The translations under genes and the position numbers were made by a program. Below, in pieces: positions 3,128 to 8,242 of a stretch of 64,000 nucleotides of DNA (the stretch's first letter is position 1; every line of letters begins with the position of its first letter). Source of the stretch: Candidatus Obscuribacter phosphatis (GTDB lineage Bacteria > Cyanobacteriota > Vampirovibrionia > Obscuribacterales > Obscuribacteraceae); NCBI GenBank assembly GCA_001899315.1, contig MOYA01000003.1, positions 334,369 through 398,368 of the forward strand, given 5' to 3'. Under the pieces are notes generated by a model. The model made no database searches, was not told the origin of the DNA, and was given only the letters and a program-made list of their open reading frames with translations.

Positions 3128-4366
3128 CTAACAACTCAATCCAATACTCTCGACCAAGCGACAAAGTGCAAGATCACACCCCGGCAAAGCAAGCAAGCCG
3201 ATAGGAAAATCAAGGTGCCCGAGAACGAGTTCGGGAAAGCCGAGGAAAGAGCCGGGAGCATTGAGCAGAAGATTCTTGCGACGATTATCGCCCAGCTCGC
3301 TGTCAGAGGCGCTCAGCAAGGGCGGCAAATCACACACCACTGGTAATACCAGCACTGTAATGCAAGGCAAGCCCTTGCTCGGCGTCTCTTGCATGCCTTC
3401 CGCCTGCAACCAAGCTACGGTCTCACTAATGATAGCTTCTCGTCTTGCTTGTCCTTCTCTATACTGCGTCTCTGTGACTGAGGCACCGGCAAGCAGGCGC
3501 TCGGCTATAGCCGGCGAAAGCGCAGGCTTATTTTCGCTATACCACTGCCCGTAGTGGCGCCAAGCTTCATAGCCGCGCATTACCGCAAACAAATCGACCA
3601 TCTCTTCTAAATCATAAGGAGGCTCCACCGACTTAAGACCATCAAAAACGCCGATAAGCGAATGATCAAAACGTTCTTGATTGGCTCTATCTAAGACTCG
3701 GCGAGCCGAGGCATCAACCAAAACGGTAAGCTCATTACCAAAAGACTTACCAAAAGCCTTATCAGATACTTCATCAACTTCGCACTTTGAGCTCTCGCCC
3801 AACAAAACAGAAAGCACTCGCGTCAAAACTTGAGCTTGACGGGCGAAAACACCGACAGCGTCAAAAGTTTCACCTAAAGGCAAAATCCCGTCCTTACTGA
3901 GAAGCCCATGACTGCTGCGCAAGCCATAGATTCCGCAATAGGCAGCCGGTACACGCACAGAGCCGGCTGTATCGGTGCCCAGAGCAAAATCGGTAAAACC
4001 AGAGGCTACCACAGAGGCTGAACCACTAGAAGATCCGCCGGGAATTCGCTCAGGATAGCGCGGATTAAGCGGAGTACCATAAAAAGAGTTTATGCCATCC
4101 ATACTGAGAGTGAGCTCGTCGCAGATAGTTGTGCCGACCAATTCGGCTGCCGCATCAAGCACTTTCTGCACGCAATCGGCATGGGCTGGCGCCGGCTGCC
4201 TAGAAGCAGCCCAAGAAGGCGAACCAAAACCGGCAATCAAGCCATTCACTGCCATGTTGTCTTTGACTGCAAAAGTCAAATCACGCAGTGGTCCATCGGC
4301 AGCTGTCTTGACCTTAAGCCTTTGCACAAAGCCGTCGCTTCTTTCACCATCTATATAGGTCGGCAT
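3128..4366 (-). CDS. Amidase-signature family hydrolase
   Basis: A 412-residue amidase-signature enzyme that would hydrolyse an amide using a Ser-cis-Ser-Lys triad. The residues are visible: Lys35 in FAVKDNM, cis-Ser112 in PGGSSSGSA and nucleophile Ser136 in DTAGSVR. The 24-residue serine spacing is the usual one. The length is nearer to the short plant/bacterial AMI1-type amidases than to GatA (about 480), and no gatB or gatC is nearby, so a tRNA-dependent amidotransferase role is unlikely. The substrate is unknown. The gene diverges from the arginine operon, with its start only about 40 bp from the operon's promoter-like sequence. Nothing in the sequence shows whether the two are linked in function. 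Confidence 0.88.
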   Translation of the reverse strand: MPTYIDGERSDGFVQRLKVKTAADGPLRDLTFAVKDNMAVNGLIAGFGSPSWAASRQPAPAHADCVQKVLDAAAELVGTTICDELTLSMDGINSFYGTPLNPRYPERIPGGSSSGSASVVASGFTDFALGTDTAGSVRVPAAYCGIYGLRSSHGLLSKDGILPLGETFDAVGVFARQAQVLTRVLSVLLGESSKCEVDEVSDKAFGKSFGNELTVLVDASARRVLDRANQERFDHSLIGVFDGLKSVEPPYDLEEMVDLFAVMRGYEAWRHYGQWYSENKPALSPAIAERLLAGASVTETQYREGQARREAIISETVAWLQAEGMQETPSKGLPCITVLVLPVVCDLPPLLSASDSELGDNRRKNLLLNAPGSFLGFPELVLGHLDFPIGLLALPGCDLALCRLVESIGLSC

Positions 4367-4405
4367 AAATATTTGGCTGAGCCCGCAATAATTCGTTTTA
4401 CTTTA

Positions 4406-4434
4406 TTGACACAAAATCTCTTTGCCATTTTACT
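4406..4434 (+). promoter_or_regulatory. Probable sigma-70-type promoter of the arg operon
   Basis: A perfect TTGACA (4406-4411) is followed after 17 bp by TTTACT (4429-4434), a 4/6 match to TATAAT. A start site about seven bases downstream would fall at or beside the A of the leader-peptide ATG (4441), so the leader might be translated from a nearly leaderless message. The -10 box is weak, and a start a few bases away cannot be excluded. Confidence 0.5.
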
Positions 4435-4440
4435 AAGCTT

Positions 4441-4491
4441 ATGCTGAAAACAGTTAATACCGTTAGCCGTCGTCGCCGCGAGTTCAATTGA
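4441..4491 (+). CDS. Arginine-rich leader peptide of the arg operon attenuator
   Basis: A 16-codon ORF, MLKTVNTVSRRRREFN, ending in TGA. Codons 10-13 are four successive arginine codons (CGT CGT CGC CGC, 4468-4479). It lies between a promoter-like sequence and an intrinsic terminator, 103 bp before the argF start. Runs of the regulated amino acid in a short leader ORF ahead of a terminator are the hallmark of ribosome-mediated transcription attenuation, as known for his, leu, trp and thr operons. A ribosome stalling on the Arg codons when charged tRNA-Arg is scarce would be the sensor. No strong Shine-Dalgarno is seen upstream (only CTAAG), so initiation may be leaderless or weak. Sequence alone cannot show translation, but the placement and composition are hard to explain otherwise. 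Confidence 0.82.
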   Translation: MLKTVNTVSRRRREFN

Positions 4492-4492
4492 A

Positions 4493-4536
4493 CCCGAGGG
4501 ATTAGCGGCTTGCAGCAAGATCATTAAATCCCCGGG
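4493..4536 (+). promoter_or_regulatory. Candidate antiterminator of the arg leader
   Basis: CCCGAGGGATT (4493-4503) can pair with AATCCCCGGG (4527-4536): ten base pairs with one bulged A at 4497. This would sequester the whole 5' arm of the terminator. The upstream arm begins one base after the leader-peptide stop codon. A ribosome at the stop would cover it and let the terminator form, whereas a ribosome stalled on the Arg codons leaves it free. GCCGC inside the Arg codons (4475-4479) can also pair with GCGGC (4505-4509), a possible competing 1:2 stem. The pairings were read by eye; no folding energy was computed. Confidence 0.68.
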
Positions 4537-4555
4537 TGCACCGGGGATTTTTTTT
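4526..4555 (+). terminator. Intrinsic terminator (attenuator) before argF
   Basis: A perfect 10-bp stem, AAATCCCCGG (4526-4535) with CCGGGGATTT (4541-4550), has a 5-base loop GTGCA. Eight T residues (4548-4555) overlap the stem end. This is a strong rho-independent terminator. It lies upstream of, not after, a gene, 39 bp before the argF ATG, so it must be read through for argFGH to be expressed. Confidence 0.9.
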
Positions 4556-4594
4556 AGTTCAAATAATTTTGTAGTTCAAAACAAGGAACAAAGA

Positions 4595-5626
4595 ATGGAC
4601 CTAACAGCAGAAATAACCAAGTTTGACGGCAGTAAGCTCAACGCCAACAAGCCTCAGCGTATGGCTAAGCCGGACGGTCCATCAGCTCTTGAATATGTAC
4701 TTTATGAGCAGAGCCTACGCGGCAAAGACATTATCGGCATCGAGCATCTCAATGCCCAAGAGCTGATGCTCATTTTAGACCTGGCGGCAAAACTAAAGGC
4801 CAATAAATTCGACGAGACTCAGACTCTCTTTAGCAAGGGGCAAACCCTGGCTATGCTCTTTGAGAAACCCTCACTACGCACCAGAGTAACCTTTGAAGCC
4901 GGTATGACGCAATTGGGCGGACATGCCATTTATCTAGAAGGAAAACTGGGCGAACGCGAAGCTATCAATGATATCGGCAAAAATCTTGAGCGCTGGGTAG
5001 ACGCAGCCATGGCCCGCACTTTTGCCCACGAGACAGTTATTGCCCTGGCCGCCAATGCCAATATACCGGTAATTAACGGGCTTTCCGACAAAGAGCATCC
5101 CTGCCAAGCCTTGGCTGACTTTCAGACAATTATTGAGCACAAAGGCAAACTCAAGGGCATAAAACTTGCCTATGTGGGCGACTCAAACAATGTTTCCAAC
5201 TCACTGCTCTTTACTGCAGCCACTCTCGGTACCGACTTTGCCATGGCTTGCCCTCACAAATATGAACCGCAAGCCTCGGTTTGGATGAAAGCCCTAGAGT
5301 TGGCCGGAAAGTCTGGAGCCAAGCTCAGCTTGACCGCAGACCCGGCGGCGGCGGTAGCTGATGCCGATGCAGTCTATACCGATGTTTGGACTTCGATGGG
5401 GCAAGAAGCAGAGGCTAAAGAGAGAGAAAACATCTTTGCCCCTTATCAGCTTAATAGCGCCCTGCTAAAAAAGGCAAAGCCCGACCACATCGTTATGCAC
5501 TGCCTGCCCGCCCACCGCGGCTTAGAGATCACCGACGAAGTCATCGATGGACCAAACTCGGTTGTTTTTGATCAAGCAGAAAACCGCTTGCATGCTCAGA
5601 AAGCCATTATGGCTCTGATTATGTAA
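4595..5626 (+). CDS. argF: Ornithine carbamoyltransferase
   Basis: Catalyses carbamoyl phosphate plus ornithine to citrulline in cytosolic arginine synthesis. The 343-residue protein shows KPSLRTR (residues 91-97) for carbamoyl phosphate, HPCQALADFQ (168-177), DVWTSMGQE (263-271) for ornithine and the catalytic-Cys motif MHCLPAHRG (301-309). The first 40 residues are an extension relative to most OTCases, which start near LRGKD. AAGGA at 4583-4587 sits well before the ATG at 4595, so I kept this start. It is the first structural gene after the leader peptide and attenuator, and is followed by argG (68 bp) and argH. The order argF-argG-argH covers the last three steps from ornithine to arginine. 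Confidence 0.95.
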   Translation: MDLTAEITKFDGSKLNANKPQRMAKPDGPSALEYVLYEQSLRGKDIIGIEHLNAQELMLILDLAAKLKANKFDETQTLFSKGQTLAMLFEKPSLRTRVTFEAGMTQLGGHAIYLEGKLGEREAINDIGKNLERWVDAAMARTFAHETVIALAANANIPVINGLSDKEHPCQALADFQTIIEHKGKLKGIKLAYVGDSNNVSNSLLFTAATLGTDFAMACPHKYEPQASVWMKALELAGKSGAKLSLTADPAAAVADADAVYTDVWTSMGQEAEAKERENIFAPYQLNSALLKKAKPDHIVMHCLPAHRGLEITDEVIDGPNSVVFDQAENRLHAQKAIMALIM

Positions 5627-5694
5627 ATCACTAATACAAGAAATTCAATTCACATCACGTCAGTCAAATCTGCACTTTGAGCGAGGTCAAACAA

Positions 5695-6915
5695 ATGAAA
5701 AAAATTCTTCTAGCATACAGCGGCGGTCTTGATACTAGCTGCATTCTCACCTGGCTCAAAGAAAAATATCAAGTGCCGATCGTGGCTTATCTAGCCGATG
5801 TCGGTCAAGAAGAAGACTTTGACAAAGTAATTGAGAAAGCCCATAAAACAGGGGCTGAAAAATGCATTATTGATGATCTAAAAGCCGACTTCGCCCAAAA
5901 CTTCATTTTTCCCTCAATCAAAGCCAATGCCGTCTATGAGCTGGTTTATCTAATGGGCACCTCGCTGGCCCGCCCTTGCATCGCTAAAGGTATGGTGGAA
6001 GCGGCTCTTAGAGAAGGCTGCGACACAATCGCCCACGGTGCCACAGGTAAAGGCAACGATCAAGTGCGTTTTGAACTGGCAATCAAGAGCCTTGCCCCTC
6101 AGTTAAATGTTATCGCCCCCTGGCGTGAATGGGAATTTCAAGGCAGAAGCGATCTTTTTGCATATGCAGAAAAACACGGCATTCCCTTGCCTGTGACCAA
6201 AGACAAACCCTATTCTATAGACGCCAACCTTATGCATATTAGCTATGAAGGCGGCATACTTGAAGACCCCTGGGCGGAAGCGCCTGAAGACATCTATATG
6301 TGGACCACAAATCCGGAAGAAGCGCCGGACAAGCCTGAGTTTGTCGAGATAGAATTTGCCGCCGGCTGCCCTGTAGCGATAAACGGCGAAAAACTTGAGC
6401 CTGCCAAATTGGTGGCCAAAGCCAATGAAATTGCCGCCGCCCACGGCGTCGGTCGTATCGATTTGGTGGAGAACCGCTATATCGGCATCAAGTCTAGAGG
6501 TGTCTATGAGACACCTGGCGTGACTATTCTTATGCAAGCCCACCAGGCTGTCGAGTCGCTGACCCTAGATAAAGAAGTTGCCCATCTAAAGGCGAGCCTG
6601 ATAGGCAAGATAGCCGAATTAACTTATAACGGCTATTGGTTTGCACCAGAGACCAAACTTTTGCATAACCTCATCGAAGAATCACAAGCGACAGTGAGCG
6701 GTATAGCCAAGCTGAAACTCTATAAAGGTCACTCGATGGTGGTGGCAAGAAAATCAGAACAGTCTCTCTACAGCGAGAAAATGACGAGCTTCGAAAATAT
6801 GAGCAGCTTCAACCCTGCCGATTCGGGTGGCTTCATCAATATCAGCGGACTGAGACTTTCCACCTGGAGCATGAAAAATGGAAGTATTAAGAAAAGCCTT
6901 CAGCCAAAAGCTTGA
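5695..6915 (+). CDS. argG: Argininosuccinate synthase
   Basis: Ligates citrulline and aspartate with ATP to give argininosuccinate. The N-terminus KKILLAYSGGLDTSCI is the PP-loop ATP-pyrophosphatase signature (SGGLDTS). GATGKGNDQVRFE and the aspartate/citrulline-binding segments such as DANLMHISYEGG are also present. At 406 residues it is the family's normal length. A TTG 18 bp upstream (5677) is in frame, but GCGAGG at 5681-5686 is correctly spaced for the ATG at 5695. Its last 38 bp overlap the start of argH in another frame, implying translational coupling. It is under the same leader attenuator as argF. Confidence 0.95.
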   Translation: MKKILLAYSGGLDTSCILTWLKEKYQVPIVAYLADVGQEEDFDKVIEKAHKTGAEKCIIDDLKADFAQNFIFPSIKANAVYELVYLMGTSLARPCIAKGMVEAALREGCDTIAHGATGKGNDQVRFELAIKSLAPQLNVIAPWREWEFQGRSDLFAYAEKHGIPLPVTKDKPYSIDANLMHISYEGGILEDPWAEAPEDIYMWTTNPEEAPDKPEFVEIEFAAGCPVAINGEKLEPAKLVAKANEIAAAHGVGRIDLVENRYIGIKSRGVYETPGVTILMQAHQAVESLTLDKEVAHLKASLIGKIAELTYNGYWFAPETKLLHNLIEESQATVSGIAKLKLYKGHSMVVARKSEQSLYSEKMTSFENMSSFNPADSGGFINISGLRLSTWSMKNGSIKKSLQPKA

Positions 6916-8242
6916 TCAGGCACTCACCGAATTTGTCGGCTCGATAGATGCCGATGAATTTCTTATCGAAGCCGATATTAGAGGTAGTATCGCCCATGCC
7001 ACCATGCTTGCCGACGGCGGTCTTTTGACCGCCGCTCAGGCAGACAATATTGTCGGCGGGTTGCAAGCCATTCTCGACTTATATAAAGCAGGTGATTTCA
7101 AGCTTAACCCAGCCTTCGAAGACGTGCATATGAATGTCGAGAAAAAGCTGCAAGAACTAATCGGCGAGGATGCCTTGAGGCTGCACACAGCACGCAGTCG
7201 CAACGACCAAGTGGCGCTGGACATCAGGCTTTATGCCCTGGGCTGCATCGAAGCCAATCTTAACGATGTAAATGAGCTGGTGGAAACTATCAAGGTTGTA
7301 GCAGCTGAAAACATCGATGCTATTTTGCCGGGCTATACCCATCTGCAACGAGCACAACCGGTGCATTTCGCCCATGCGCTTTTAGCCTTTGTCGAGATGC
7401 TCGAAAGAGACAAAGCAAGACTAAAAGATCTCACCAAACGCGTGGCGGTATCACCGCTGGGCGCCGGCGCCCAGGCAGGCACTGGCTTGAACATCGATCC
7501 GGCTCTTTCGGCAAAACTTTTGGGCATGCCCTCACACTTTGCCAATTCAATTGACGCAGTGAGTGATCGCGACTTTGTGGCCGAATATTTGTTTGTGGCA
7601 GCCATGTGCGGTGTGCACCTAAGCCAGATGGCCGAAACCCTGATTATCTACGCCAGTAAAGAATTCGGCTTCATTTCATTTAGCGATGCCGTCACCACAG
7701 CCTCAAGCCTCATGCCGCAGAAAAAGAATCCCGACCCGGTGGAACTAATTAGGGGTAAATGCGGCTCAATGGTGGGTGAGCTGGTCAATGTATTGGTCAC
7801 CTTGAAAGGTCTGCCCCTCGGTTACAATCGCGATCTGCAAGAGACCAAACCACCTCTAATCAAGACAGCCAAAGAAATAGGCAATTGTTTAAGAGTGATG
7901 ACCGTGGTCTTACAATGCCTGAGCGTCAATAAAGAAGTGACTCTCAAGGCTGCCGGCGATGCCGAAATGATTAGCACCGACCTGGTCGAATACTTGGTCA
8001 ACAAAGGCATTCCCTTTCGCAAAGCCCATGAAGATGTGTCAGCCTTGGTGGCTCATGCCAGAGAGAGCGGACAAACACTTAACGAGTTGAGTCTCAGTGC
8101 TTGTCAAAGTTTCAATCAAGCTTTTGAAGACGACCTCTTTCAACTATTTGACCCAAAAGGCTCGCTGCAGGCTAAAACTTCGCCGGGCAGCACCGGCACA
8201 GCAAAAGTCAAAGAAGCCCTTGCCAAAGCTGCTAAAATTTAG
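6878..8242 (+). CDS. argH: Argininosuccinate lyase
   Basis: Splits argininosuccinate into arginine and fumarate, the last step of arginine synthesis. A 454-residue member of the fumarase/aspartase superfamily. It has the start-region RKAFSQKLDQALTEF, HTARSRNDQVA, the TGYTHLQRAQPVHF-type segment (PGYTHLQRAQPVHFAHALL) and the catalytic signature SSLMPQKKNPDPVE near residue 280. The ATG at 6878 lies 38 bp inside argG. The usual N-terminal WGGRF motif is replaced by VLRKAF at this start, so the N-terminus is slightly short, but homologous residues follow at once. It closes the argFGH operon; a methyltransferase gene begins 27 bp later. Confidence 0.94.
   Translation: MEVLRKAFSQKLDQALTEFVGSIDADEFLIEADIRGSIAHATMLADGGLLTAAQADNIVGGLQAILDLYKAGDFKLNPAFEDVHMNVEKKLQELIGEDALRLHTARSRNDQVALDIRLYALGCIEANLNDVNELVETIKVVAAENIDAILPGYTHLQRAQPVHFAHALLAFVEMLERDKARLKDLTKRVAVSPLGAGAQAGTGLNIDPALSAKLLGMPSHFANSIDAVSDRDFVAEYLFVAAMCGVHLSQMAETLIIYASKEFGFISFSDAVTTASSLMPQKKNPDPVELIRGKCGSMVGELVNVLVTLKGLPLGYNRDLQETKPPLIKTAKEIGNCLRVMTVVLQCLSVNKEVTLKAAGDAEMISTDLVEYLVNKGIPFRKAHEDVSALVAHARESGQTLNELSLSACQSFNQAFEDDLFQLFDPKGSLQAKTSPGSTGTAKVKEALAKAAKI

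Follow-up and report, generated by a model that had tools for sequence, protein, structure and literature searches.

Arginine-codon leader peptides as candidate transcription attenuators of arginine biosynthesis genes in Obscuribacteraceae

Results

Organization of the argFGH locus

The locus lies in a 64-kb stretch of DNA, here called the window, from genome G000 of Candidatus Obscuribacterales (95% complete), an order of Candidatus Melainabacteria, and from a family of nonphotosynthetic relatives of cyanobacteria. Three genes of arginine synthesis follow a short open reading frame (ORF) and an intrinsic terminator (Table 1). The window argF is 97% identical to argF of a Candidatus Obscuribacterales MAG (locus L034) and has its own AAGGA a few bases 5′ of its ATG, outside the hairpins described below. 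The argG gene is listed from TTG 5677, whereas related proteins point to ATG 5695 as its start, and argH begins inside the 3′ end of argG (overlap 6878–6915). A preliminary description of this DNA, made by reading the sequence, had placed argF, argG, and argH after the terminator with no further promoter-like sequence. The three gene calls score above their NCBIfam cut-offs, and a promoter scan of the plus strand between the terminator and argF found no promoter-like site, both in agreement with that statement.

A promoter-like pair that was absent from the earlier account sits upstream of the leader ORF; its TTTACT is a −10 element too weak for the rule of the promoter scanner. TTGACA is found similarly placed 5′ of most copies of the element, commonly as TTGACA-N17-TAAC[CGT]T in relatives. 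The placement of the pair in the window predicts a transcription start at the leader ATG or within a few bases of it, suggesting that the leader peptide may come from a leaderless mRNA in the window's genus. No Shine-Dalgarno sequence precedes the leader ORF in this genus; in other genera, the 5′ stretch ahead of the leader ATG is longer.

Table 1. Features of the argFGH leader region and operon (window coordinates)
Feature	Position	Strand	Basis
Promoter-like pair, TTGACA (4406–4411), 17-nt spacer, TTTACT (4429–4434)	4406..4434	+	direct reading
Leader peptide ORF, MLKTVNTVSRRRREFN + stop, 16 codons	4441..4491	+	ATG 4441–4443, TGA 4489–4491; frame and Arg run kept in relatives
Hairpin 1:2, sequesters segment 2, predicted to form with Arg codons unoccupied	4465..4510	+	ViennaRNA fold
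Four Arg codons CGT CGT CGC CGC (codons 10–13; putative sensor codons)	4468..4479	+	direct reading
Segment 2, ACCCGAGGGATT, complementary to terminator 5′ arm	4492..4503	+	ViennaRNA fold, covariation in relatives
Antiterminator hairpin 2:3, −18.7 kcal/mol	4492..4537	+	ViennaRNA fold, covariation in aligned rows
Intrinsic terminator 3:4, stem 4526–4550, −17.2 kcal/mol, T-run 4548–4555	4526..4555	+	ViennaRNA, covariation
argF, ornithine carbamoyltransferase	4595..5626	+	NF001986 and TIGR00658 above cut-off
argG, argininosuccinate synthase	5677..6915	+	NF001770 and TIGR00032 above cut-off
argH, argininosuccinate lyase	6878..8242	+	TIGR00838 above cut-off

A leader ORF, a terminator, and three exclusive hairpins

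The 16-codon ORF with its run of four Arg codons and the terminator with its perfect 10-bp stem and eight Ts are located just as the preliminary description had them. The terminator has 10 uninterrupted pairs closing a loop of 5 and is the sole terminator-like site in positions 3600–5200. It could be that the only role of this terminator is to end a transcript from upstream, or an antisense one, and that the Arg-rich ORF is a coincidence, given that intergenic intrinsic terminators are common and that the ORF is just 16 codons long. The gene upstream of the leader is oriented opposite, however, and no plus-strand gene reads into the terminator. The window has a single instance of a short ORF with four Arg codons in a row and a terminator no more than 120 nt away, and the combination is found in 0 of 40 simulated 64-kb sequences of equal dinucleotide composition; with the retention of the arrangement in relatives, these simulations uphold the earlier judgment that chance is unlikely. 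Because the Arg frame and segment 2 are conserved, coincidence is already contradicted, and with ORF, segment 2, and terminator kept jointly before five different arginine genes, we consider it very improbable.

Segment 2 is complementary to positions 4527–4537 (AATCCCCGGGT), which form the 5′ arm of the terminator. It can pair either with this arm or with the region of the Arg codons, a point that the preliminary description did not make. The resulting set of three mutually exclusive hairpins matches that of a classic ribosome-mediated attenuator. When a ribosome is simulated on the window RNA with codons 10–13 in the A site, the RNA through segment 3 adopts the antiterminator fold (−19.0 kcal/mol). 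A ribosome at the stop codon abolishes the antiterminator (−2.5 kcal/mol), and with one near the start (codons 2–4) hairpin 1:2 competes and can exclude it. In these predictions 48 of 48 distinct copies of the element behave likewise: a ribosome at the first Arg codon leaves the antiterminator in place (mean −20.5), and one at the stop codon removes it (mean −0.7). In the full window RNA at equilibrium, the stability of the terminator equals or exceeds that of the antiterminator (terminator pair probability 0.57–0.95), indicating that the switch must be decided by the order in which the segments are transcribed, like the trp and his attenuators. The final Arg codons lie near segment 2 in argJ/argB-type copies and in some argC copies, so that a ribosome stalled on them would not help the antiterminator.

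Distribution within the family

The preliminary description had proposed comparing the regions upstream of argF in related genomes, with absence of the Arg run or the terminator counting against an attenuator. The comparison came out the opposite way. Among the first 20 family genomes with argF, 11 have the arrangement upstream of that gene. A covariance model, built from a seed alignment of eight copies, was then run on 53 genomes of the order, 382 of the class, and 386 of the phylum. Arg-run ORF, antiterminator segment, and terminator are kept in 28 genomes from 11 genera, each with at least one copy of the element; two of these genomes (G016, full-length, and G031) were settled from individual loci. 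The window copy is a diverged member that scores 35 bits. No full-length match lies outside the window's family in the samples of order (53), class (382), or phylum (386). Matches in G195, G256, G272, G283, and G379, and weakly in G036, all outside the family, span the terminator half of the model only and were discarded, as was a weak false match at L156:3621–3720 (E 0.09 in its genome), which does not adjoin an arginine gene. A simple scan for an Arg leader and terminator at 75 argF loci, mostly from other phyla, recovered a known family member (L082) and five other cases, which were unconvincing and had none of the conserved features.

The gene downstream is argF, argC, argJ, argB, or argG for every full-length copy with E ≤ 0.001 and known downstream sequence; at L114, the locus sequence ends within argF, which was assigned by reading it. 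Copies before argC and argJ stand in series in one arg cluster in G006, G024, G027, G030, G033, and others; a separate TTGACA lies upstream of most argJ copies. Two attenuators follow each other within a single argCJBD cluster at L143, L144, L145, and L149, where the one between argC and argJ comes second and usually has a TTGACA of its own. Just 3′ of argD in G006, L143:8050–8202 (+) matches the Rfam poplar-1 RNA at 123.5 bits, above the gathering score.

Conservation of the leader peptide

Arg makes up 19% of the leader-peptide residues over 48 distinct copies. The third bases of the Arg codons vary among relatives (CGT, CGC, CGA) with Arg retained, and the Arg residues come in arrangements such as RRRR, RRTRR, RRFPRRRA, SRRRPG, and RHTLRRRVR. 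In the same 48 copies, the N- and C-terminal residues of the leader drift and the spacing of the Arg codons varies. Judged by these substitutions, the leader coding frame is under selection. The synonymous third-base changes and altered arrangements, together with the drifting termini, speak for sensing of codons and against either a specific arrest peptide or a motif that acts as RNA alone. Conservation of CGCCGCCGC purely as RNA was rejected on the grounds that the Arg frame survives synonymous changes and altered spacing.

An arginine-binding riboswitch, in which the RNA itself would bind arginine and switch the terminator with the ORF incidental, would likewise account for conservation of a leader RNA in which alternative hairpins accompany a terminator. 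Conservation here, however, resides in the Arg codons, the switch segments, and the terminator, whereas the linker varies in length and sequence; the Arg codons change in the manner just described with the frame retained; and neither an Rfam riboswitch nor a T-box matches. We find a riboswitch highly unlikely. An arrest peptide of the fungal type, in which arginine would stall the nascent peptide and lower expression, has in common with the element a leader peptide that is linked to arginine and precedes an arginine gene. Outside its Arg residues, however, the peptide is unconserved between copies, unlike arrest peptides, and stalling on the Arg codons of this leader would favor the antiterminator, which is the opposite sign. 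The probability of such an arrest mechanism is close to negligible.

Covariation of the switch segments

Covariation of the terminator on the seed alignment lies above all 500 shuffles. For the antiterminator, 52 distinct rows were aligned by their fit to the terminator only. Antiterminator partners are paired in 91% of cells, 37 cells are changed on both sides, and the covariation score was reached by 0 of 500 shuffles; as the shuffles ignore relatedness, these covariation figures are indicative. Shifting the antiterminator partner by one column lowers pairing to 56–64%. Segments 2/3/4 vary jointly, reading CCCGGGG / CCCTGGG / CCCGGGG in argF copies, GCTCGGGG / CCCCGAGT / GCTCGGGG in L012, and GCGCTCGGG / CCCTGAGCGC / GCACTCAGGG in argJ copies.

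The leader could instead act mainly after transcription, on mRNA stability or on argF translation, as at Salmonella speF, where orf34 uses two Arg codons in that way (PMC6386406). Essentially every copy has both a covarying antiterminator and an intrinsic terminator followed by a T-run, and the argF AAGGA lies outside the hairpins; both observations argue against a mainly posttranscriptional action, to which we give very little credence.

ArgR and putative attenuators

A search of G000 for ArgR (PF01316) gave no match, so the locus is unlikely to be part of an ArgR regulon, for which ArgR would have to be encoded in the genome; the contrast that had been drawn with ArgR repression is borne out to this extent. 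In the family, ArgR is found in 8 genomes, all among the 34 with arginine genes. None of the 20 genomes with an argF or argG attenuator encodes ArgR, compared with 8 of the 14 others (Fisher P = 0.0002, not corrected for phylogeny). ArgR-less genomes in which no attenuator was found are only G005 (65% complete) and G035.

Strict mutual exclusion of ArgR and attenuators is too strong a statement, as G003, G014, G031, and G066 encode ArgR and also have an attenuator upstream of argJ or argB; exclusion of ArgR is confined to the copies at argF and argG. No attenuator was detected in g24 and g8, two genera with ArgR, and genera g13 and g2 combine ArgR with an attenuator at argB or argJ. At the ArgR-bearing loci of g13 and g2 (L222, L225, L226, and G003:C35), argR adjoins argG and attenuators occur only at argB or argJ; in these genera, control would be split within one pathway.

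No match to argC or argJ was found at E 1e-30 in G000, G001, or G002, so argFGH is apparently the only arginine operon of these three genomes, or the main one, and the attenuator appears to be its only recognized control. With argC and argJ undetected and argFGH intact, the ornithine used by argF must come from elsewhere, by uptake or another route.

Discussion

The anatomy, conservation, and covariation observed here, with every convincing copy placed before an arginine gene, point to a ribosome-mediated (leader-peptide) transcription attenuator that would sense charged tRNA-Arg and control argFGH, a reading to which we assign a probability of about 0.93. The arginine attenuator originally proposed for this DNA is thus supported at the sequence level by conservation before argF, argC, argJ, argB, and argG. 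The 48 distinct copies have a leader ORF in which codons for the end-product amino acid of the operon form a run, and an intrinsic terminator separates the leader ORF from the first structural gene. By computed folding only, the antiterminator is exclusive with the terminator and is free with a ribosome at the sensor codons, and a ribosome at the stop codon blocks it.

We infer stalling, switching, and the arginine response as follows. At low arginine, the ribosome would stall on the Arg codons and block hairpin 1:2, leaving segment 2 free to pair with segment 3 during transcription; this pairing would prevent the terminator, and argFGH would be transcribed. With ample arginine, the ribosome would reach the stop codon and cover segment 2, segments 3 and 4 would pair, and transcription would stop at the T-run. 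If the leader is not translated, hairpin 1:2 would form, and termination would also be expected. Arginine leaders of this kind precede most of the arginine-making operons of the family and, by their predicted design, very probably switch these genes on only when arginine is low.

Ribosome-mediated attenuators are well known from his, trp, leu, thr, phe, and ilv operons, whereas control of arginine synthesis has been described in terms of ArgR or T-boxes. With the enterobacterial attenuators, the element shares an end-product-codon leader peptide, three exclusive hairpins, an intrinsic terminator, and a biosynthetic operon downstream. It differs from them in that it is predicted to sense arginine, precedes arg genes, and occurs in Melainabacteria, and in that several separate copies cover one pathway with no matching Rfam leader family. 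ArgR repression likewise provides feedback control of arginine synthesis but is protein–DNA repression. A T-box RNA binds uncharged tRNA directly and has no leader peptide. The fungal arginine attenuator peptide has its name and an arginine-linked leader peptide in common with the element; it is eukaryotic and acts by arginine-caused translation arrest, with a conserved peptide and no terminator.

Arginine T-boxes, which have been mentioned (PMC1262725), share with the element RNA-level control of arginine genes; neither the sequence nor the stem I fold sought for a T-box was matched in Rfam at the gathering score or among the weak matches. In Salmonella, consecutive Arg codons in the short ORF orf34 sense arginine by ribosome pausing, and putrescine synthesis is controlled by way of Rho-dependent termination and decay by RNase G (PMC6386406), whereas the element here is predicted to use an intrinsic terminator and an antiterminator. 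It is not an orf34 of the speF type (ORF34, DUF2618, ahead of speF), as arginine biosynthesis genes lie downstream and the peptide has no HIRRT core. A short leader peptide with Arg codons, rbfL, senses arginine limitation in Staphylococcus aureus and acts on translation of a biofilm regulator without transcription attenuation (PMC13009471); its sign is opposite to that predicted here. For the carA leader peptide of Pseudomonas aeruginosa, attenuation has been attributed to pyrimidines (PMC4997734).

Neither the window copy of the element nor those of relatives matched any Rfam model, curated leader families included. A search of papers outside subscription journals found no Arg-codon attenuator on arginine biosynthesis, and the literature found on the Melainabacteria describes no attenuator. 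Within these bounds, the earlier suggestion that an Arg-codon leader on an arginine operon would be distinct still stands. As far as we found, the mechanism is known by its anatomy, that of the classic leader-peptide attenuator, and the amino acid, the regulon, and the lineage would be new.

We lean toward a broader proposal in which cis-acting leaders at argF, argC, argJ, argB, and argG jointly replace ArgR in most Obscuribacteraceae, with some argCJBD clusters carrying serial attenuators and the window's genus reading its leader ORF from a leaderless mRNA. A regulon-wide arginine attenuator, if true, would mean that the logic of attenuation serves arginine too and that a dedicated repressor can be replaced by RNA and translation. 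With neighboring genera that have ArgR, putative attenuators, or both, the family also represents a natural experiment in the control of arginine synthesis.
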